From positions 35,960-99,959 of the forward strand of contig JAGBIY010000020.1 in the NCBI GenBank assembly GCA_017934745.1: a stretch of 64,000 bases of DNA, given 5' to 3'. Each line of letters opens with the position of its first letter. The stretch's first letter is position 1. The stretch comes from Treponema sp. (lineage in GTDB: Bacteria > Spirochaetota > Spirochaetia > Treponematales > Treponemataceae). Below, one piece after another: positions 29,495-49,209 of the stretch. The position numbers and the translations under genes are program-made. The notes beneath the pieces are model-generated. The model was not told the DNA's origin, searched no databases, and saw only the letters and a program-made list of their open reading frames with translations.

Positions 29495-29512
29495 ATTTTT
29501 TTGCAGGTGATT

Positions 29513-30808
29513 ATGTTCAGCAAGTGGATTTTGTTCGTTTCAAGAAGGTTCTCTAAAGTTGACAGGCAGGGACGTTCCGCCGTCACCTCGATGCTGGCGT
29601 CGCTTGGGATATGCTTCGGCGTGATGACGTTGATTACGGTCATAAGCGTCATGAACGGCTTCCAGATGAGCTTCATCGATTCGATAATGGAAGTCAGCTC
29701 GTACCATGTGCAGGTGTCGGGATTCGGAAAGGACGGCGAATCGTTGGAGCGGTTCAGGGAATACTGCATTCGCGACGACGAGATTCTGTCGTACGTTCCT
29801 TATCTTGAGGCTCAGTCGCTCGCCGTAGGGCGCAACGAGAAGCAGACGGCGGCTCTTCTCCGCGCGGTTCCCCCGACAGTGCGCGACGACGATTCCGGGT
29901 TCGCCTCGGAAGTGAGGATGTGGAGCGGAAATTTCGACTTGTCCAGTCCAGACTCCATCGTCCTCGGAAGCGACCTTGCCCACGCGCTCGGCGTCAGAAT
30001 CGGGGGCGTCGTAAATTTGTGCGCGCTCTCCGGTGGAGCGGACGTTGACCTGTTCTCCTCCGACCGTGTTTTCACGGTCACGGGGATATTCAGGACGGGG
30101 TTCGCGGACATCAACTCGTCATACGCTTTCGTCAATTTCGACGACGGAAAGAGATACTTCGGCGAAAAAGCCGTTGAGAATCTCGTCTACGGCCTGAAAA
30201 TCAGAGACAAGTACAAGGATGCGAGGGTAGTCTCCAGACTTCGGCAGGAATTCCCGAATCTGAAGGTGGAATCGTGGAAGAATTTCAACCGCTCGTTCTT
30301 CGGCGCGCTCCGCGTGGAAAAGAACATGCTCATGGTTCTCGTGTTCCTCATTTTTGTCGTCGTCGGGATAAACATCTTCTCCGGTATGCGGCGCATGGTG
30401 TTCGAACGCCGCGAGGAGATAAGCATAATGTCGGCTTTCGGCGGGCGGAAGAGCCAGATTCCGTCGATTTTCGTGATGCAGGGATTTTTGACCGGCTTTT
30501 TCGGAGCGGTGCCCGGCCTCGTGCTTGGGCTTCTTTTGTGCGTTCGCATGTCGGACATATTCATGCTCATCTCCAAGGCGACGTACTATATCCAGCTTTT
30601 CTTCGTCATGCTCGCATCTCCTGAGAGCGGAGATTTCGTAAGGGAGAATTCGATGTTCATGGTCTACGCGGGAATCCCCCCGAGGGTGGAGCCTGGGGAG
30701 GTCCTCGTGATAACCGTGTTCGGGATGTTCTCGTCACTCGTCGCGAGCTGGATTGCCAGCAGGAACGTCCTGAAGATGACTGTCGCGGAAGTCATGAGGG
30801 ATGAATAG
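29513..30808 (+). CDS. LolC/LolE-type lipoprotein-release permease
   Basis: 431 residues from ATG 29513 with AGGTG upstream; TTG at 29501 is a longer alternative. Membrane helix 1 (about 23-45), a large periplasmic MacB-core-like domain, then three C-terminal helices (LMVLVFLIFVVVGINIFSGM, FLTGFFGAVPGLVLGLLLCV, and the last near VLVITVFGMFSSLVASWIAS) give the FtsX fold. With the next two genes it forms a permease-ATPase-permease set, the LolCDE arrangement that extracts lipoproteins from the inner membrane. Whether this one equals LolC or LolE cannot be decided by eye. Confidence 0.88.
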   Translation: MFSKWILFVSRRFSKVDRQGRSAVTSMLASLGICFGVMTLITVISVMNGFQMSFIDSIMEVSSYHVQVSGFGKDGESLERFREYCIRDDEILSYVPYLEAQSLAVGRNEKQTAALLRAVPPTVRDDDSGFASEVRMWSGNFDLSSPDSIVLGSDLAHALGVRIGGVVNLCALSGGADVDLFSSDRVFTVTGIFRTGFADINSSYAFVNFDDGKRYFGEKAVENLVYGLKIRDKYKDARVVSRLRQEFPNLKVESWKNFNRSFFGALRVEKNMLMVLVFLIFVVVGINIFSGMRRMVFERREEISIMSAFGGRKSQIPSIFVMQGFLTGFFGAVPGLVLGLLLCVRMSDIFMLISKATYYIQLFFVMLASPESGDFVRENSMFMVYAGIPPRVEPGEVLVITVFGMFSSLVASWIASRNVLKMTVAEVMRDE

Positions 30809-30833
30809 TTTTTTTTTATTTTATGGAGGAAAA

Positions 30834-31520
30834 ATGGGCGGAAATCATATCGTTTCGATAAGGAAACTTGAGAAGACTTACAAAACCGACAGCGAGACAC
30901 TCACGATTTTGAAGGATGTCGATTTCGATGCCGAGCGTGGAAAGAAAATCGTCATAGTAGGACAGAGCGGAAGCGGAAAAAGCACGTTCCTGAACATACT
31001 CGGCGGACTCGACTCGGCCACCAGCGGCTCCGTCGTGGCTGGCGGATTCGATGTGACGTCGCTCGACGAGAAGGGGCTTTCCGAGTACCGCTCGAAATTC
31101 CTCGGCCTCATATTCCAGTTCCATTACCTTCTCAAGGATTTCTCCGCTTTGGAGAACGTCTTCCTCCCGGCTTTCATGGCCGGAGTCCCGAAAAAAGAGG
31201 CGATGTCGAAGGCGCGGGGGCTTCTTGTCGACGTTGGGCTGGAGTCTCGCATGAACCATCTTCCGTCCCAGCTCTCAGGCGGCGAGAGGCAGCGCGTGGC
31301 CGTCGCTCGCTCTTTGATAAACGACCCGGAGCTGATTCTGGCGGACGAGCCGACCGGAAACCTCGACCCCGCGAACGCCGAGATGATAGGAAACCTGCTT
31401 TTTTCGATGGCCGACAAGTACGACAAGACGCTCGTCCTCGTGACGCACGACATGCGCCTGGCCGAAAAGGGCGATTTCAAGTATTCGATAAAAAACGGAA
31501 AACTGGTGAAGGGTGAGTGA
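30834..31520 (+). CDS. lolD: LolD-type ABC transporter ATPase
   Basis: 228 residues from ATG 30834 with GGAGG five bases before it. Walker [10 protein letters not shown] near 44, Q-loop [16 protein letters not shown], signature [15 protein letters not shown], Walker [13 protein letters not shown] and the switch [11 protein letters not shown] are all present. The sequence is typical of the LolD/MacB subfamily. It sits between two FtsX-fold permeases and is followed by the second without a gap. Confidence 0.92.
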
Positions 31521-32858
31521 ATGAAAACTGAAGCGTCGGTTCTTTTCGCGGCCCGTCTTTTGTTCCCCAAAACCGGGAAAAAGTCGAACGCGCGCAGAAG
31601 CCTCATTGGAGCGATGGTCTGCATCGGAATAAGCCTTGTGCCGCTCGTCATGGTGCTTTCCGTCTCCAACGGAATGATAGAGGGAATAACGGACAGGATG
31701 ATTGGCCTTTCCACGTCGCACATAAGCTGCGTGCTGCAGAACGAGACGGAGGCTGTCTCTTCCTTCGGCTCCTTCAAGAAAGTCTCGTCCGAGTTGAACA
31801 TCCTTCCCGGTGTGGTCGATTCGTTCCCGGAAATTCAGGGGATGGCTCTCGCGTCGTCCCTTTCCGGGCGCACGGGTGCGTCGGTCAGGGCGGTGGAGAA
31901 GGACGTCTTTTCCAGGAACAAGTCATTTTCTGAGCTTTTCGAGGTCGTGGACGGAAAAACGGAATTCGATTCGGAAAAGTCTGCGATAATCGGAAAGAAA
32001 CTTTCGGAGATTCTGGGGGTGAAGGCCGGAGACACGGTAAGGCTCATAACGATACGCGACGACGGGAATTCGGCGGACGGAGAAGTTTCTCTTCGCCCTC
32101 GCATAACTTCGCTCAAGGTCTCCGGAATCGTCTCCAGCGGGTATCAGGAACTGGACGCTCTGTGGCTGTTCGTTCCGATTGAGACAGGCTTCTCCGTCCT
32201 TCCGATGAAGTCGTCGAAATTCGTCATAGGCGTGGAGACCGAAGACGCGTTCGACATCTCGCTGGAGCGCGCGGTGCGGTATGTTGAGCGCACAGTGCCG
32301 AAGGGGACGAGGGTCTACCGCTGGAACGAGCTGAATTCCGCACAGTACGAGAATTTCGCTTCGACACAGACGATGCTCCTCTTCATAATGATGCTGATTG
32401 TCCTTGTCGCGTCCGTGAACATTTCGAGCGCGCTCATAATGCTCGTCATGGAGCGCAGGAAGGAGATTGCGATTCTGAAAAGCCTGGGGGCTTCCCCTTC
32501 TGGAATCGCGCTCTCGTTTTTGCTGACAGGAATGGTGACAGGACTTTTCGGAGTCCTCATCGGCATTCCCTGCGGTCTCCTCTGTTCCGTCAATTTCAGT
32601 TCGATAATGAATTCAATAGAAAAAATCGTCAATGTCGTCTACGAATTCTTCCATGTGCTTTTCCACGGAAATCCTGACACTCTGACGATTCGGCTTTTGG
32701 ATCCCGCCTTCTACCTGCAGAACGTCCCCCTCGCGATTCCCCTTCCTCAGCTTGTGGTGGTCGCGAGCGGGACACTCGTGCTCTCCCTCTTCGTCAGCGC
32801 GATTCCTGCAATAAGGGCGGGGGCTGAAAAACCGATTGAAACGTTAAGGAAAATTTAG
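31521..32858 (+). CDS. LolC/LolE-type lipoprotein-release permease, second copy
   Basis: 445 residues starting directly after the ATPase stop (GGTGAG before the ATG). First helix about 32-55, periplasmic domain with [16 protein letters not shown]..., then TM segments [39 protein letters not shown] and a final helix near [23 protein letters not shown]. It shares the fold of the upstream permease but little obvious identity, as expected for a LolC/LolE heterodimer. Confidence 0.88.
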
Positions 32859-32872
32859 TTATTATTTTGTCT

Positions 32873-33415
32873 ATGCTTTGTAGTCTTTGTCACGAAAACG
32901 AGGCCTGCATTTTTGTCGAACAGACGAATGTGGTGACCCAGAAAAGAAGAATGTGTCTCTGCGCGGATTGCGCCCGTCAGTTCGGCATCCCGCCGACATC
33001 GAAAACGATGACGAAATCGTTGACGGCTCTTTTCGACGCTTTTTTGAAGGTGAACAACGCCAACGATGTGTACAGGAATTCCCCCGACAGCAAAAAACTC
33101 TGCCCTGTATGCGGCATCAGCCTCCTTTCTATAAAAAAGACCCGCAAGGTCGGTTGTCCTGAGTGCTATGCCATTTTCAAGGACGAGATAAACGATATCC
33201 TGAAGAACATAGGAGTCACGAACGAGTACACAGGCTCCATGCCTAAGCGCATAAGGAATTTCAGCTCGGTGTTGACCACGAGGGTCGCAATCCAGGGAAA
33301 GCTTGAGGAATCCCTAAAAAAGGAAGACTACGAGAAAGCCGCAATCTACCGCGACTATCTAAAAGCGTTGGAAAAAGCCCCTGTTGCGGGCGACGGTGAC
33401 GCGGAAGATGAGTGA
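32873..33415 (+). CDS. mcsA: McsA-like zinc and UVR-domain protein
   Basis: 180 residues from ATG 32873; the longer frame starts with TTG. Paired CxxC sites are seen: CSLCHENEACIF, CADCARQF, CPVCGISLL and CPECYAIF, matching the metal-binding half of McsA. A UVR motif (QGKLEESLKKEDYEKAAIYRDYLKAL) closes the protein. In Firmicutes McsA activates the arginine kinase McsB and the ClpC chaperone. The gene order mcsA-mcsB-clpC is kept here, without ctsR. The McsB start overlaps this stop by eight bases. Confidence 0.9.
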   Translation: MLCSLCHENEACIFVEQTNVVTQKRRMCLCADCARQFGIPPTSKTMTKSLTALFDAFLKVNNANDVYRNSPDSKKLCPVCGISLLSIKKTRKVGCPECYAIFKDEINDILKNIGVTNEYTGSMPKRIRNFSSVLTTRVAIQGKLEESLKKEDYEKAAIYRDYLKALEKAPVAGDGDAEDE

Positions 33416-34508
33416 CAAAGTTTCATCATCTGCAATCGGCGACGCGTGGTTCGCTTCCGAGGGACCGGAAAGCGATGTCGTCATATCGACAAGGGTGCGC
33501 CTCGCCAGAAATTTGGCGAATTTTCCGTTTCCTGTCCGTTTCCGCGGCGACGACGCCGACCATGTGCGCGCGATTGTCTTCGACGCTTTCTCCCATTGCT
33601 CGGCACCGGACAACTATCAGGCCGTGATAACGTCGAACCTCGATTATGTCGGAAAAAAGATTTTGTGCGAGCGCGGAGTCATGGAGGCTTCCACTCCAGT
33701 GTCTACCGGTTCTGGAATCGTAATCAGCACGGACGGGGTTCTTTCTTGCATAGTGAACGGAGTCGACCATCTGCGTTTGTCCTCGTTCGTTCCGGGGCTT
33801 GCCGGTGTCGAGGCGTTCGAGATGGTCAAGCGCGTGGACGACGAACTGCAGAATTCCATCCAGTTCGCGGCGAGCGTGGAGCATGGATACCTCACTTCCG
33901 ACATGAGCGACTGCGGAAGCGGAATGAAAGTCTCTTGCCGTGTGCATCTTCCATCGATAACGTTCGCGAAAAAGTTGAAGGACGTCTTTGTGGAATTCGA
34001 CAAGCGGGGAATAGAAGTGCGCGATTCGTTCGGGCTTGGATCGGAGAAGGAGTCCGCGCTCGGCTGCTTCTATCAGGTTTCGACAAAAGTCGCCGGAAAC
34101 GGAAGCGAAATAGAGCAGATGGCGGGACTCATCGGCGCCGTGAAATTCCTTGCGGAGACCGAACGGAAGATTTCCAGGGAGATTTTTGTCTTGCGGGCCA
34201 CCGAGATAAAGGACATGATTTACAAGTCGTACGCTTCGTCGAAATTTTCCTTTCTGCTCTCGGAACGTGATGCCGTGGAGGCGATTTCCCTTGTCAAGTG
34301 GGGGAAGAACCTCGGTGCCGTAAAAGGAATTTCTGACAGCGAGTTGTGCGCCCTTTTGTACAGGATAAGAAGCGGGCACCTCCAGTTCTTGATGAAGAGC
34401 AAGGATTTTGCTTTCCCAAACGATGTGGCGAAAAGCCCTCTTCTAAAAGAAAACAGCATACGTTCATTGATAATTCAGGAAGCGTTTTCACAGATTTCGT
34501 TTAACTAG
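33408..34508 (+). CDS. mcsB: McsB-family protein with altered active-site residues
   Basis: 366 residues from ATG 33408; the longer frame begins with TTG. Homology to the ATP:guanido phosphotransferase fold of McsB is clear: GPESDVVISTRVRLARN, DHLRLSSFVPG, GYLTS...GSGMKVSCRVHLP, EVRDSFGLGSE. Compared from memory with Bacillus subtilis McsB, the catalytic NEED motif (Glu120/Glu121) reads NGVD at 117-120, and Cys167 corresponds to Asp165 (GYLTSD). The C-terminal phosphoarginine-sensing RDxRRA region reads NSIRSL. The nucleotide-binding arginines look kept. It may therefore be a pseudokinase or use a different chemistry. Operon: mcsA-mcsB-clpC. Confidence 0.88.
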   Translation: MSDKVSSSAIGDAWFASEGPESDVVISTRVRLARNLANFPFPVRFRGDDADHVRAIVFDAFSHCSAPDNYQAVITSNLDYVGKKILCERGVMEASTPVSTGSGIVISTDGVLSCIVNGVDHLRLSSFVPGLAGVEAFEMVKRVDDELQNSIQFAASVEHGYLTSDMSDCGSGMKVSCRVHLPSITFAKKLKDVFVEFDKRGIEVRDSFGLGSEKESALGCFYQVSTKVAGNGSEIEQMAGLIGAVKFLAETERKISREIFVLRATEIKDMIYKSYASSKFSFLLSERDAVEAISLVKWGKNLGAVKGISDSELCALLYRIRSGHLQFLMKSKDFAFPNDVAKSPLLKENSIRSLIIQEAFSQISFN

Positions 34509-34526: not shown

Positions 34527-37019
34527 ATGAATATGAAAGGAATGTCGAATCTTGTCGACCGGCTTCTTCTTCTCGCACAGGATGAGGGGCGGAACAGCGG
34601 AGCTTACGAGCTTCAGCCTGAACACGTCCTTTTGGCTCTTTTGAAAAACGCGGAGGGCTACGGCTACAAACTCCTTCAGCATTTGAACCTGAACGTTCTT
34701 TCATTCCAGCTCATGCTTGAGCAGAGCGTCACGAACGACGACGTGAAACCTCAGCAGATGGTTGGCGCCCTCCAACCGTCCCACAGGCTTCGTTCTGTGC
34801 TCGATGCGGCCGTCATCGAGTCGCGCTCCATGCAGAACACTTCCGTCGGAACCGAGCACTTGATAATCGGAGCGAGCCTTGAAGAGCGGAGCGTGACGGC
34901 CAGATTCTTCGCGAACTCCGGTATAGATTTGGAGAAGCTCAGGCGCGTGGCGAAGGAAATCCAGCACGAGAACAACGATGTCGACGAGGACACCGACCCT
35001 TCCGAAGTCGCGGATGCCGAAAAGAATTTGGAGCCTGAATTCGCCGGCCGCCCGAAATCCGACAAGAAACAGAAAGGCTCCTTCCTTTCAAAATACGCGA
35101 AAAACCTCACAGCCATGGCGAAAGACGGAAAACTCGACCCGGTGATAGGCCGCTCGGACGAGATTGCCAGGGCGATACAGATTCTGAGCCGCCGAACAAA
35201 GAACAATCCGATTCTTCTCGGAGAGCCGGGCGTCGGAAAAACAGCCGTCGTCGAAGGTCTCGCCCAAAAGATTGCGGCGCGGGACGTTCCGTACAATCTC
35301 TACGACAAGCGCGTCATGAGCCTCGACTTGACCGCGATGGTCGCGGGGACGCGCTACCGCGGCGACTTCGAGGAGCGCATGAAGAAGATGATACAGGAAG
35401 TCGAGGAATGCAAGGACGTGATTCTCTTCATCGACGAAATCCACATGATGATTGGCGCGGGCGACTCTTCCGGCGGAACGATGGACGCGAGCAACATACT
35501 GAAGCCCGCCTTGAGCCGCGGTGAAATCCAGCTCATCGGAGCGACCACGCTCAAGGAGTACCGCCAGCACATCGAGAAGGACTCCGCCCTTGAGCGCAGG
35601 TTCCAGTCGGTCACAGTCGACGAGCCTTCAATCGAGGACAGCATAAAAATCATCGACGGTCTCAAGCAGAAGTACGAGGAATTCCACAATGTCGTCTACG
35701 AACCTGATGTCGTTCCCGCCATCGTGAAGCTCAGCGCGCGCTACATTCCCGACAGGCACCTTCCCGACAAGGCGATAGACATTCTGGACGAGGCCGGAAG
35801 CGCGAAGAAAATCGAGGGCAACGAGAAGCCCGCCCAGCTTGCCGAGCTTGAACTGAAACTTGAGGCCCTCACGAAAGAGAAGGACGAGATGGTCTCTTCC
35901 AAAAAGTACGAGAACGCGGCAATCGCCCGCGACCAGGTGAAGGAGCTTCAGAAGCAGATAGACGGGCTCAGCGAGTCTTGGAAGGCGAACGCGTTGAGCG
36001 AGGCGAGGCGCGTTTGTGTCGGGGATGTCGAGAAAGTCATAGCCGGAATGACAGGAATCCCTGTGGAGCGGCTGGACTTGAACGAGTCCGCAAGGCTGCT
36101 CGGCATGGAGGAAGAACTCCACAAGTCCGTCATCGGTCAGGACGAGGCCGTCCGCCTTTTGAGCAGCACGGTCAGAAGAAGCCGCTCCGGTGTTTCAAGC
36201 CCGAACAGGCCAATCGGCTCGTTCATATTCCTCGGCCCTACCGGTGTCGGAAAGACGCAGCTGGCGAAGTCGATCGCGAAATTCCTTTTCGGCTCGGAGG
36301 ATTCTCTCATTCGCATCGACATGAGCGACTTCATGGAAAAATTCACGTCGACACGCCTTGTGGGAGCGGCTCCAGGCTATGTGGGCTACGAGGAGGGCGG
36401 CTCGCTCACGAACAAGGTCAGGCAGAAGCCTTACTCCATCGTCCTTTTCGACGAGATAGAGAAGGCGCACCCGGACGTCTTCAACTTCCTCCTGCAGATA
36501 CTTGAAGAGGGGCAGCTCTCCGACAACCTCGGCCATGTCGTGAATTTCAGGAACACGCTCATCATCATGACTAGCAACGCCGGTTCGGGGGAAATCCTTT
36601 CCGAGAAAAAACTCGGATTCTCCTCTTCATCGACCGGCCTTATTTCCCACGAAGAGCTCAAGTCGAACGTGATGGAGGAACTCAAGAAGATAATGAGGCC
36701 TGAGCTTTTGAACAGAATCGACGACATTGTCGTCTTCGACCCGCTAACGAGGGACGAGGTCTCAAAAATCCTCGACATCCAGCTTAAGGAGCTTGAGGAC
36801 AGGATTTCTGAGAAGAGCATAAAGCTGAACGTGACGGATGGGGCAAGGGAGTACCTCCTCGACAACGGATACGACCCGGAGATGGGTGCGCGTCCAATGC
36901 GCCGCCTCATCCAGAACGAAATCGAAGACCAGCTTGCGACTTTGATTTTGAAGAACGAAGTCTCCCCCGACGGACGCGTGAATGTCGATAAAATCGATGG
37001 AAAAATAGTGGTGAAGTAG
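34527..37019 (+). CDS. clpC: ATP-dependent Clp protease ATPase ClpC
   Basis: 830-residue Hsp100 unfoldase. The double Clp N-domain covers about 1-145, D1 has [13 protein letters not shown] near 230, a UVR-containing M domain ([29 protein letters not shown]) lies near 450-480, and D2 has [13 protein letters not shown] near 570. The ClpP-docking loop LGF is present in [12 protein letters not shown] 34527 has AAGGAG in the usual place. It presumably works with the ClpP encoded at 48577. McsA and McsB directly upstream suggest adaptor control as in Firmicutes. No clear terminator follows; 37020-37115 holds only a weak stem around an A10 loop (about 37069-37088). Confidence 0.97.
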
Positions 37020-37115
37020 AAACAGGCGATTTTCTGTCTTTAGAGTCGGTTTTCTTCAAAAAAATTACCATACAAAAAAAAAAGTATGTGTTATTTTTCT
37101 CTGCGGAGGAAAATA

Positions 37116-38270
37116 ATGCTTAACAAAAAGTTAACAATCAAAGTGGGACTGGCCGCCATGCTTGCTGCCGGTATATTCTCCAGTTGCGACACGTCGACCC
37201 GCGACTTGGACGAAGATAATTCAGCCATCATCGACGGATTCCCCGAAGATTTGCTTGCGACGCTTGAGCTACAGAACAACATCGACTTGAACAACGATGG
37301 AAAGTTGAGCGGCCACGAGGCTGCATCGCTCACGTCTCTCGACTTGTCTGGGTACGTGTGCGGTTGGGTTTCGGACAGCGACGAGTCTGTGGCGACCGAC
37401 AGTTCAACTGGGCTTGCTCTCACATACGAGGAAGGCGTCGCCAATGGGTATTCCGCAGACGGTTCGGGATACACTTGGACCGACGAGCTTTCCTGGCTCG
37501 ACAAGCTTTCCTATTTCACCGGTCTTGAGTCGTTCACGGTCGGTTCTGAAAGCAAGGCCTGCGCCCTGTCCTCGATAGACATATCGAAATTGTCGTCCCT
37601 TGAGACCCTGAACCTTGTCTATACAAATGTTTCCGAGCTTGATTTGACAGGGCACGAAGCCATCACTTCCCTGACAATATCGAAAAGCTCGAAAATCTCT
37701 TCCTTGAACCTCTCTTCGGTTCCGAATCTAGTCTCCCTCGACATCCGAGGCTGCTCTGTAAAGTCTGGTCTCGAGTACATTCCGAATCTGACAGCTCTCA
37801 CGAACCTCAAAATCCACCGACTCGGAGCGAACAACAACGCCGTGATGGGAAAGGACGAGGACGGAAACTACGCGGTCGATTTGACGGCAGCGACTTACGC
37901 GAACAACAACAATGTCGAATCTTTGGCGAGCGGAGCGTTCGACAAGTTGGTGAACCTCGCGGAAATCATGGCGGAGAACTGCGGAATCACTTCAATAAAC
38001 TTGTCCGCCTGCTCGAACCTCAAGAACATCTACCTTGAAGCGAACAGCATCAGCGGAGAACTCGACTTGAGCGGCATAAACACAGGATTCAAGAACATTC
38101 AGCTCACTGGAAACCCGGATTTGGCGTCTTTCACGCTTCCCGGAAGCAAGACTGCGACAGGAAACGTCTACGCAGACACCGGCGTGACATGCACCAATGC
38201 GGACGCTACCGGCACACAGACTGCCACCACGGCATTCGCAAGCGGAAAATGCACAACTTCATGGAACTAG
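37116..38270 (+). CDS. Leucine-rich-repeat lipoprotein
   Basis: 384 residues from ATG 37116, with GGAGGA five bases upstream; a longer frame from 37086 was rejected. The signal ends in IFSSC (loose lipobox). An EF-hand/dockerin-like loop DLNNDGKLSGHEA lies near 55-67, followed by irregular leucine-rich repeats (LSSLETLNLVYTNVSELDLT, ITSLTIS, LVSLDIRGC, LKNIYLEANSISGELDLS). LRR surface proteins often mediate binding. It is directly upstream of the pectate lyase gene (11 bases), so it may bind plant cell-wall polymer or the host surface; this is inferred from position. Confidence 0.8.
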   Translation: MLNKKLTIKVGLAAMLAAGIFSSCDTSTRDLDEDNSAIIDGFPEDLLATLELQNNIDLNNDGKLSGHEAASLTSLDLSGYVCGWVSDSDESVATDSSTGLALTYEEGVANGYSADGSGYTWTDELSWLDKLSYFTGLESFTVGSESKACALSSIDISKLSSLETLNLVYTNVSELDLTGHEAITSLTISKSSKISSLNLSSVPNLVSLDIRGCSVKSGLEYIPNLTALTNLKIHRLGANNNAVMGKDEDGNYAVDLTAATYANNNNVESLASGAFDKLVNLAEIMAENCGITSINLSACSNLKNIYLEANSISGELDLSGINTGFKNIQLTGNPDLASFTLPGSKTATGNVYADTGVTCTNADATGTQTATTAFASGKCTTSWN

Positions 38271-38281
38271 GCGAGGAGAAA

Positions 38282-39901
38282 ATGATGAAAAGGACAAATG
38301 CTTTGAAAATCGCTGGATTGACCGCCGCAGCCGCATCGCTTTTCGTTGCGGCCTGCTCCGACCCGTCAGGCGTTTCTTACGACAGCAGTGCGAGGGCCGT
38401 CGGGTACGCTTCACACGCAGGTGTTGACGGAGGGGACGACGCGGACGTCTACCACACTTACTACATAAACGAATTCGACACGAACACGCCGTATACATAC
38501 GACAACGACTCTGCGGGAGCGAGAAGCTGCGAGGTTTTGAACGTAGTTTTGACGGACTTGAAATATAGGCAGAAGAGCGGAAAGTACTGGGGCGGAGACA
38601 AACTGGATTCCACCGAGGCAAAATACAATGGAGGCACAAACTACTCCAAGAAGCTTTCCGACTTGTGCATAAACAAGGACAACACGAGCTGCGACTGGGA
38701 CCAGGACGGTACGGTGGACTTCTATCTGACTGGCGGAAAAGACTTGAACCCTGTCCTGATTTGCCTCGAAGGCGACGTGGAGAACTCCTGCACGACCGAC
38801 AGCGGCTGGGAAAGCGCGGGCCAGACTGGAAGAATCGTCACGTTGAATGGACTCAAGAACGTGACGATTCAGGGAGTGGGCGAGAGCGGAGCCACGCTCG
38901 TCCATTACGGATTCAAAATATCGAGCTGCAGCAACATCATAATCCGGAACCTCTCGTTCTCCGCTCCGTACAAGGACGCCATCGACATCGAGGGCAGCGA
39001 CTGCGTTTTGATTGACCACTGCTCCTTCTCCGATTGGATTTCCGAGGACGAGCCATACACAGACTCGTCGGGGAATTCCGTCTCCAGCGACGGAGCGATT
39101 GACATAGGCGGCGGAAGCACCAACGTCACCGTTTCCTACAACCACTTCGACGACACGAACAAGAACATGCTCTATTCATCGGGAAACTACGGGGCGGACG
39201 ACGGAAACACCGACTCAAAGCAGACGGTCTCCGTCATGTACAACTGGTTCGAAAAGACTCACCAGAGAAACCCGATGGTGAGGTTCGGAACTGTCCACGT
39301 CCTCAACAACTTCTACGACAACGTCTCTTCTTACGGAATCGACGGAAGACACGCCGCCCGCATCCTTGTCGAGGGAAACTATTTCCTGAACACGAAGAAA
39401 ATCTCCCAGACTTCCTTCATCGCCGGCGAGATTCCTTCATTCCTCAGCCAGAAAGATTGGGGATGGGAATACGGATATCCGGCTCTCATAAAACTTCAGG
39501 ACAACTACAGCAAGTACAACGGCGAAGTCGTCTATCCAGTGCACCACGGCGTGAACGGGTTGAACGGAGTCACTGCGGTCGAAGTTTTGGCGACAAGCAA
39601 CCCGGAATATGACGATTCTGGAAACCTTGTCGCGCGTGGCAGCGGCGACGATTTCGCTCCGACTACATTGGACGGAACAACTTGCGTCTACGACAACGAC
39701 AAGCACAACGGCGCGCAAAGTTGGGACTACACGCCTCCATACGAGTACGTCTCGATGAAGCCTTCCGATGTTCCAACTTACGTCAAGGCCAACGCTGGAA
39801 ACGTCTACAAGTTGAGCAGACCTGCGAATTTGAAAGCTGCGCAACTTTTGGTGAGTCACGGCTCAATTTATTCAGAGAGCTTCACAAGTACACTTTGGTA
39901 A
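38282..39901 (+). CDS. Pectate lyase family 1 lipoprotein
   Basis: 539 residues from ATG 38282 (GAGGAG before it; a second ATG follows at once). The lipoprotein signal ends in LFVAAC. The parallel beta-helix pectate lyase core (about 190-410) shows NIIIRNLSFS, DAIDIEGSDCVLIDHCSF, DGAIDIGGGSTNVTVSYNHFD, and the HQRNPMVRFGTVHVLNNFYDN block with the catalytic-type Arg. These blocks match polysaccharide lyase family 1, which cleaves polygalacturonate by beta-elimination using calcium. Surface anchoring would let the cell degrade pectin outside. The porin-like gene follows 22 bases later. Confidence 0.9.
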   Translation: MMKRTNALKIAGLTAAAASLFVAACSDPSGVSYDSSARAVGYASHAGVDGGDDADVYHTYYINEFDTNTPYTYDNDSAGARSCEVLNVVLTDLKYRQKSGKYWGGDKLDSTEAKYNGGTNYSKKLSDLCINKDNTSCDWDQDGTVDFYLTGGKDLNPVLICLEGDVENSCTTDSGWESAGQTGRIVTLNGLKNVTIQGVGESGATLVHYGFKISSCSNIIIRNLSFSAPYKDAIDIEGSDCVLIDHCSFSDWISEDEPYTDSSGNSVSSDGAIDIGGGSTNVTVSYNHFDDTNKNMLYSSGNYGADDGNTDSKQTVSVMYNWFEKTHQRNPMVRFGTVHVLNNFYDNVSSYGIDGRHAARILVEGNYFLNTKKISQTSFIAGEIPSFLSQKDWGWEYGYPALIKLQDNYSKYNGEVVYPVHHGVNGLNGVTAVEVLATSNPEYDDSGNLVARGSGDDFAPTTLDGTTCVYDNDKHNGAQSWDYTPPYEYVSMKPSDVPTYVKANAGNVYKLSRPANLKAAQLLVSHGSIYSESFTSTLW

Positions 39902-48577: not shown

Positions 48578-49209
48578 TATTTCCTCTCCTCAGATTTTGA
48601 CTCTGAAGATTTGCTTCTTGCCGGCATCACATGGTCGACGATTCCGTATTCGAGGGCTTCGTCCGCCGACATGAAGAAATCCCTCTCGATGTCTTTAGCC
48701 ACGGTGTCGAAATCTTTCCCAGTTTTGTCGGCGAGGTACTTAATAGAAAGTTTTTTGAGCCGGAGAATCTCTTTCGCCTGAACGGCGATGTCGCTTTCCT
48801 GTCCCTGGACTCCGCCTGAAGGCTGATGAATCATAACTCTCGAAGATGGAAGGGCGTATCTCTTTCCCTTCGTTCCTCCTGCGAGGAGAATCGCGCCCAT
48901 GGATGCAGCCTGTCCCATGCAGATTGTCTGGATGTCGCACTTGACGTACTGCATCGTATCGTAGATTGCGAGTCCCGCCGTGACGCTTCCTCCCGGCGAG
49001 TTGATGTACATGCTGATGTCCTTTTCCGGGTTCTCGGACTCAAGGAAAAGAATTTGCGCTACTACAAGATCCGCCGCCAAGTCGTGGATTTCACCGTCAA
49101 CGAAGATGATTCTGTCTTTGAGGAGGCGTGAGTAGATGTCGTAAGACCTCTCTCCGTTGCCGCTGCGCTCTATAACAAAAGGAACGTTGTTGTTCATCTG
49201 CTCGTTCAT
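48577..49209 (-). CDS. clpP: ATP-dependent Clp protease proteolytic subunit
   Basis: 210 residues. The catalytic triad is visible: Ser in GQAASMGA near 102, His in MIHQPSGG near 127 and an Asp in the following helix region (DKTGKDFD near 176). [10 protein letters not shown] is the handle region. ATG 49209 has GGAGA upstream. The tail after residue 197 is Ser/Lys-rich. It forms the chamber used by ClpX (next gene) and probably ClpC (34527). Confidence 0.98.

Follow-up and report, generated by a model that had tools for sequence, protein, structure and literature searches.

The McsB homologue encoded in the window (the whole stretch of 64,000 nucleotides of Treponema sp. DNA analysed here) retains the fold and the gene neighbourhood of McsB but has lost the glutamate and the cysteine of the catalytic site. 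Loss of the canonical kinase residues is well supported as a lineage-wide feature of Treponema and, judging from sequence comparison, canonical arginine kinase activity is very probably absent. The protein shows the hallmarks of a pseudokinase, namely a kinase fold, lost catalytic residues and purifying selection, and a pseudokinase acting as a phosphorylation-independent adaptor or scaffold in a McsA-McsB-ClpC unit appears to be a reasonably probable, although not a secure, interpretation. The positions of the features discussed below are given in Table 1.

Table 1. Features discussed in the text; positions refer to the window unless another locus or contig is given.
Feature	Position	Strand	Basis or remark
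FtsX-type permeases (two) and ABC ATPase	29501..32858		
mcsA	32873..33415	+	two CxxC...CxxC zinc modules, UVR motif at C-terminus
mcsB, putative pseudokinase	33408..34508	+	ATG at 33408, TAG ends 34508, frame intact, 366 aa
NEEDH site, N117-G118-V119-D120-H121	33756..33770	+	ungapped structure-sequence alignment
McsA-docking loop equivalent, residues 155-161	33870..33890	+	alignment with 8gqd
Asp165 replacing catalytic Cys167	33900..33902	+	YLTSC reads YLTSD
Lys174 replacing Arg176	33927..33929	+	wider alignment
Lid loop with insertion, residues 208-217	34029..34058	+	Glu212 position ambiguous
Arg352, equivalent of Arg341 of the C-terminal pArg site	34461..34463	+	invariant in 127 Treponema-type sequences
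clpC	34527..37019	+	830 aa; Glu32 and Glu106 equivalents of pArg pockets kept
Two large frames after clpC	37086..39901		
clpP	48622..49158	-	PF00574 E 7.8e-82; about 12 kb downstream
McsA-McsB frame of G186	L324 641-2344, from G186:C1:1226500-1232500	+	PF00217 missed McsB
mcsB in two frames, G028	G028:C4:47791-48853		stop or frameshift
Second LMW-PTP-like protein, window's genome (L265)	G000:C60:35202-36080		
Second LMW-PTP-like protein, L264	G243:C38:4954-5826		

An earlier note on this DNA had proposed that the guanido-kinase fold is kept, and a fold with a McsB-type C-terminal domain was indeed found. In a phmmer search against solved structures, the window protein aligns with B. subtilis McsB 8wtb (E 6e-45). 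Glu121, Glu212 and Cys167 of McsB are taken here as the equivalents of arginine kinase Glu225, Glu314 and Cys271. These three arginine kinase residues are reported to be essential for orienting and polarising the guanidinium (PMC11075012), and B. subtilis McsB C167S is reported to be kinase-inactive (PMC7235348). The note compared the window protein with a remembered Bacillus sequence, and the 8wtb alignment agrees with it at both the Glu and Cys sites: the Bacillus NEED reads NGVD (residues 117-120), with Val119 at the position of Glu121, and Cys167 reads Asp165. Comparison with McsB structures and spirochaete homologues, the check that the note had put forward, thus finds both catalytic residues replaced. 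Acidic residues in the active site, which the note considered contrary to its reading, are represented by Asp165 in the literal sense only; as the same column holds Ser, Asn, Ala, Gln and others among relatives, the Asp has not been conserved as a substitute. A search of the active-site motifs for another acid that could take over catalysis likewise found none.

Other functional positions are retained in part. In B. subtilis, each of the substitutions R29K, R31K, R34K, R125K, R176K, R207K and R337K is reported to abolish the signal (PMC7235348). The window protein keeps R29, R31, R34, R125 and R207 (R176 is Lys), so that nucleotide binding is possible. The fate of Glu212 depends on how the lid loop, which has an insertion, is aligned: from the left end of the loop, Glu212 corresponds to Leu210, while a right-anchored alignment made by eye can put a window Glu at this position (mean pLDDT is 76 over residues 211-220). 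The earlier note further considered the C-terminal RDxRRA phosphoarginine (pArg) sensor to be lost, which holds for R337, replaced in the window protein, but not for R341, retained as R352. Moreover, R337 is absent from all 27 readable spirochaete McsB that possess both Glu121 and Cys167 (with a gap in three more), so its change is no marker of kinase loss, and the C-terminal site was dropped as evidence. Scores against NCBIfam models were dropped as a membership test for a similar reason. The window protein reaches 201.9 bits for NF002194 (cut-off 385) and 193.2 bits for NF053707 (cut-off 500), but this does not discriminate, as all six of the scanned spirochaete McsB with both catalytic residues (of 30) likewise fall below the cut-offs (298-348 bits against the 385-bit one).

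The loss extends far beyond the window. Our dataset contains 200 loci, which yielded 180 distinct McsB sequences, among them a Treponema-type set of 129 (50 from the window's genus, 19 from the rest of its family and 60 from a contig profile search, of which the best 80 of 142 matches were used). Two of the 129 are fragments and 127 are near full-length. Glu121 and Cys167 never occur together in these 127 sequences (nor in the 129 with fragments included): Glu121 is found in 13 (one sequence, L165, has a gap there), Cys167 in one and Arg176 in nine. The other arginines are unevenly retained (R34 in 126, R29 in 104, R125 in 85 and R207 in 15), and an acid stands in the Glu212 column in two, although this column depends on how the lid is aligned. 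Each of the 127 sequences differs at three to seven of the positions R29, R34, E121, R125, C167, R176 and R207, versus zero to two changes in the 30 spirochaete McsB with both catalytic residues, a set selected for two of these seven positions. Even in the latter, R176 is not kept in seven and R207 is not read as Arg in 21, so changes at R176, R207 or R337 alone prove nothing. As identical positions are lost across 127 relatives while their flanks are invariant or nearly so, the residue loss is more than chance.

To place this pattern in the phylum, 296 Spirochaetota genomes were drawn evenly; 193 have a PF00217 match, which is a lower bound because this profile misses some McsB (e.g. that of genome G186), and the active site could be read in 150, the 43 unread ones being largely weaker matches. 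Both residues are present in 30 of the 150, Glu121 only in 20 and neither in 100. The 30 are located in eight of the 27 families read, and the window's own family contributes none (0/46). The possible pseudo-arginine-kinase of the earlier note is thus supported at the sequence level, both within the Treponema-type set and across the phylum. Isolate genomes also exhibit the loss: both residues are missing in T. socranskii and T. parvum, and T. berlinense has Glu121 without the Cys.

Several lineages deserve separate mention. In family f25 (L105, L106, L120 and most of L287-L315), no sequence out of 28 has both residues, and McsB is more eroded, with four to six of the seven kinase positions changed per sequence and R125 in none. 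Genus g21 of the window's family (G077, G089, G182, G219 and G226) reads NLEDH or NLDDH and lacks the Cys; none of these five genomes has a low-molecular-weight phosphatase (LMW-PTP) match. In G028, mcsB is split between two frames, which may reflect real decay or an assembly error. Finally, some f1 genomes have no McsB match, such as the 1.1 Mb G114.

The mcsA-mcsB-clpC arrangement that the earlier note had described as an operon was found both in the window and in its relatives. In the window, the start of mcsB shares 8 bases with the end of mcsA (read from the DNA itself), and clpC begins 18 bases past the mcsB stop. Among the 129 Treponema-type loci, 128 have mcsA upstream of mcsB and on its strand, at a median distance of 3 bases and a maximum of 350; the exception has fewer than 400 bases upstream. 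Similarly, clpC lies downstream in 125 loci, all but two of the 127 that extend 500 bases or more on that side; the median distance from mcsB to the first clpC profile residue is 31 bases, and about 1.4 kb separate the two genes in L123 and L125. The closest named relative of the window McsB is an 85% identical protein from an uncultured Treponema metagenome-assembled genome (L121). The window ClpC carries an LGF loop (read by eye), and the ClpP encoded on the opposite strand is likely to be its peptidase partner.

Other genes surround this locus. On the 5' side are two FtsX-type permease genes and an ABC ATPase gene (LolCDE-like). Only 14 bases lie between the end of this group and the ATG of mcsA, so that it may share a transcript with mcsA-mcsB-clpC. 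In G186, too, an FtsX-type frame precedes the McsA-McsB fusion frame. Of the two large frames following clpC, one shows weak LRR matches under the Pfam cut-off, and the other encodes a pectate lyase (PF00544, E 5.8e-32). Scans of this DNA for promoters, terminators and inverted repeats gave no usable result.

McsA accompanies McsB closely. The window McsA has the UVR domain in Pfam and matches B. subtilis McsA (8wtb_B, E 4.7e-17); it scores 88 bits against NF053706, the cut-off of which is 210 bits. Of 128 McsA matches, 125 carry the whole second zinc module, the part that docks on McsB; as the other three cross the locus edge, the cysteines of this module are kept in every readable case (125/125). 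Among the 110 long McsA matches, 108 show the first module and two have gaps there. Fourteen Treponema-type loci (L019, L022-L027, L029, L067, L069, L073, L075, L079 and L080) carry a short McsA that lacks the first module and is made up of the second one plus the C-terminal region; parts of the McsA-McsB-ClpC unit thus erode as well.

Presence of the two proteins is also correlated among genomes. All 49 genomes with McsB have a McsA match, near full length in 42 and partial in seven (G003, G004, G010, G038, G072, G153 and G330). Among the 31 genomes without a PF00217 match, several of which are incomplete assemblies, 12 have no McsA match and 18 have weak ones (E 1e-7 to 1e-3), all lying in the C-terminal third but for one in G019 (positions 62-135, E 4.5e-4). 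The last of the 31 is G186, in which McsA and a very degenerate McsB share one 567-residue stop-to-stop frame, with clpC adjoining. This McsB is recovered with our own profile (E 1.4e-32), and both its NEEDH site and its Cys are gone. One frame holding the pair without the kinase residues at these two sites supports a joint non-kinase role.

Selection on mcsB was examined through close pairs and conservation along the protein. In 17 of 19 close pairs (those with finite dS), dN/dS ranges from 0.02 to 0.16; dS exceeds 1 and is saturated in eight of the 17, and the remaining nine give 0.05-0.16. Over the same pair set, values are 0-0.29 for mcsA and 0.03-0.13 for clpC pieces. When the 379 columns of the Treponema-type alignment are ordered by variability, those of G118 and V119 come 14th and 32nd from the variable end, while the nearby N117 and H121 are invariant, as are G170 and G172. 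Thus, selection appears to hold the scaffold and to ignore the catalytic side chains. D120 is present in 124 of the 127 sequences, and its near-invariance beside the lost Glu counts against the pseudokinase interpretation. Conservation is highest in the block around R31-P42 (lowest entropy), and the second lowest-entropy block includes residues 152-163. The corresponding loop of S. aureus McsB (Y147-Y153) is contacted by the zinc finger of McsA (PMC12467219).

A quick tree of 89 rows, built with the catalytic columns excluded and rooted on two Bacillus-type rows with both residues, sets the 48 thinned Treponema-type rows apart from the others by one branch (SH-aLRT 96-99). This tree requires a minimum of 11 changes for Glu121 and of seven for Cys167, mostly losses under the Bacillus-type rooting; several of the non-Treponema rows are long-branched, and their placement is uncertain.

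The rest of the pArg system provides less discriminating evidence. LMW-PTP matches were detected in 43 of the 56 f1 genomes searched, and 46 matches could be read. A Thr at PX5 is reported to direct YwlE/PtpB to pArg (PMC8001253). None of the 46 has it: Ile or Val takes this position in 41 and Ser in three, which read CVHNSCRS, and in the other two the loop is degenerate. This argument for the lack of an eraser is weak, however, as Thr within a C(X)4CR loop was seen in two (G070 and G094) of the 24 genomes whose McsB has Glu121 and Cys167 (four of the 24 have no LMW-PTP match, and four matches are unread). Second LMW-PTP copies in G238 and G266 have the Thr at PX5 but Ala for the second Cys. 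In the window's genome and in one relative (L264), the catalytic Arg is missing from the P-loop of a second LMW-PTP-like protein, which reads CSKNVSLSP or CQDNVTLSP and makes the protein a possible pseudophosphatase.

The CtsR search was negative in all 80 genomes, a result made less secure by its controls, of which only Lactococcus matched; the B. subtilis control did not match and seems not to span the region, as PF00217 was unmatched in every control. On the ClpC side, the equivalents of the pArg-pocket residues Glu32 and Glu106 are present in all 124 Treponema-type N-domains read, and Glu32 is Asp in four of 25 ClpC from genomes with Glu121 and Cys167. These retained residues might indicate a pArg signal from another source, but their retention is also expected under an adaptor role, since the pockets are reported to anchor the ClpC resting state and to bind MecA (PMC12583610). 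A further test, at the ClpC activation site Arg254, was weighed and dropped: according to an S. aureus alignment, this residue falls in a YRGEFEER stretch, which is general to Clp ATPases, and it cannot discriminate.

Among the two activities that the earlier note had envisaged, a ClpC adaptor without kinase activity fits these data best, in so far as sequence can tell. Phosphorylation of a different group finds little support, with no new conserved acid found in the active site and phosphate-site arginines eroded in some of the relatives. We propose that McsB would serve as a scaffold that has kept its guanido-kinase fold and McsA-docking surface and has very probably lost canonical phosphoryl transfer to arginine. 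McsA would bind it via the second zinc module, and the complex may dock on the ClpC N-domain, perhaps at the pArg pockets also used by MecA, where it would free ClpC from its resting state or bring substrates unmarked. The fold, the residue losses in the clade, purifying selection, gene order, the shared retention of McsA and the one McsA-McsB fusion frame are computed results, of which gene order and McsA retention speak to an adaptor; lack of kinase activity in vitro, association with ClpC and whether ClpC would be activated or restrained are what we infer here.

Experiments in B. subtilis bear on this proposal in both directions. With McsB C167S, the half-life of MgsR is 12.3 min, versus 17.7 in the deletion, which the authors interpret as a kinase-independent adaptor function; MgsR is degraded mainly by ClpXP and not ClpCP, and loss of ClpC had no effect (PMC7235348). 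The adaptor role of B. subtilis McsB on ClpC itself is reported to be kinase-dependent (PMC5506225).

Three other functional interpretations have to be weighed. In the first, McsA-McsB would hold ClpC in an inactive state until McsA becomes oxidised, without supplying it with substrates. McsA is reported to act as a redox switch for McsB in B. subtilis, where ClpC and McsB interact (PMC5506225), the second-module cysteines of McsA are kept in all readable sequences, and the failure to find CtsR in the 80 genomes, weak control included, removes one known target. However, the inhibition known in B. subtilis is that of McsB by ClpC and not the reverse, the first zinc module is missing from McsA in 14 loci, and our data do not separate restraint from activation. 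We consider such a restraint unlikely.

Secondly, McsB could be a regulator that binds ATP or ADP without transferring phosphate, its nucleotide state switching McsA or ClpC binding. The five arginines kept in the window protein and the frequent retention of R29, R34 and R125 among relatives are in line with such a regulator, while the scarcity of R207 (15/127) and the joint loss of R29, R31 and R125 in some members (e.g. L017 and L020) count against it; we regard it as rather improbable.

Thirdly, the protein might still be an arginine kinase with rearranged chemistry, stimulated by McsA, in which for example D120 or a lid Glu would stand in for Glu121 and Glu212. The high frequency of D120, the five phosphate-site arginines of the window protein, the lid Glu allowed by a right-anchored alignment and the pArg-pocket glutamates present in every ClpC read could all be explained in this way. 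Yet D120 is equally invariant in the 30 McsB with Glu121 and Cys167 and has therefore not been newly acquired. Gains of an acid are limited to two columns (B. subtilis positions 59 and 111), both outside the active-site motifs by sequence; moreover, 49 of the 127 sequences have no acid in the lid block, 42 have lost R125 and 23 have lost R29. A rearranged kinase is accordingly quite improbable.

Finally, a decaying relic or an assembly artefact, to which the interrupted mcsB of G028 and the f1 genomes without a match (e.g. G114) might point, is largely refuted already by the dN/dS values and is highly improbable given purifying selection, conserved gene order and the losses in the genomes of the three isolates.

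The non-catalytic scaffold that we favour may be compared with known systems. The Treponema protein shares its fold and neighbourhood with the known McsB of B. subtilis, G. stearothermophilus and S. aureus (PDB 6tv6, 6fh1-6fh3, 8gqd and 8wtb), but differs from them by the lack of Glu121 and Cys167, by Lys at Arg176 and by the absence of a detected CtsR (with the weak control mentioned above). As both Glu121 and Cys167 are replaced, it ought not to be classed among the protein arginine kinases. MecA has a fold unrelated to McsB and is not known to have enzymatic activity. Bacterial serine-threonine pseudokinases belong to a different kinase superfamily. The likeness to MecA lies in the proposed way of contacting ClpC through its N-domain, where MecA occupies the pArg pockets (PMC12583610), and the likeness to serine-threonine pseudokinases in a kinase fold without catalytic residues (PMC12599244); the latter article names McsB solely in its reference list. 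The B. subtilis C167S mutant resembles the Treponema protein in having lost the catalytic Cys while showing a residual adaptor-like effect, on a ClpXP substrate (PMC7235348), whereas the Treponema state is natural, lineage-wide, marked by more lesions and retained in evolution. The chlamydial McsB is termed a putative arginine kinase (PMC5177608). In the literature searched, which covered few subscription papers, we found no earlier description of a spirochaete McsB or of a pseudokinase McsB; what appears to be new is a natural, recurrent and lineage-wide catalytic loss with the module retained.

Spirochaetes appear to have split the adaptor role of McsB from its kinase role several times. More tentatively, with the odds slightly against us, most of Spirochaetota may rely on McsA-McsB-ClpC proteolysis without any arginine phosphorylation, McsB having repeatedly become a pseudokinase whose scaffold, rather than its chemistry, is under selection. 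If this is true, the two roles would be separated in nature, and pArg marking would be restricted to certain lineages. For many spirochaete McsB, the label 'protein arginine kinase' is probably incorrect if transferred by homology. Natural McsB proteins that are probably kinase-dead also offer material for studying how McsA-McsB acts on ClpC when pArg plays no part. While the McsB of Bacillus tags damaged proteins for destruction, its Treponema form suggests a scaffold instead of an enzyme.
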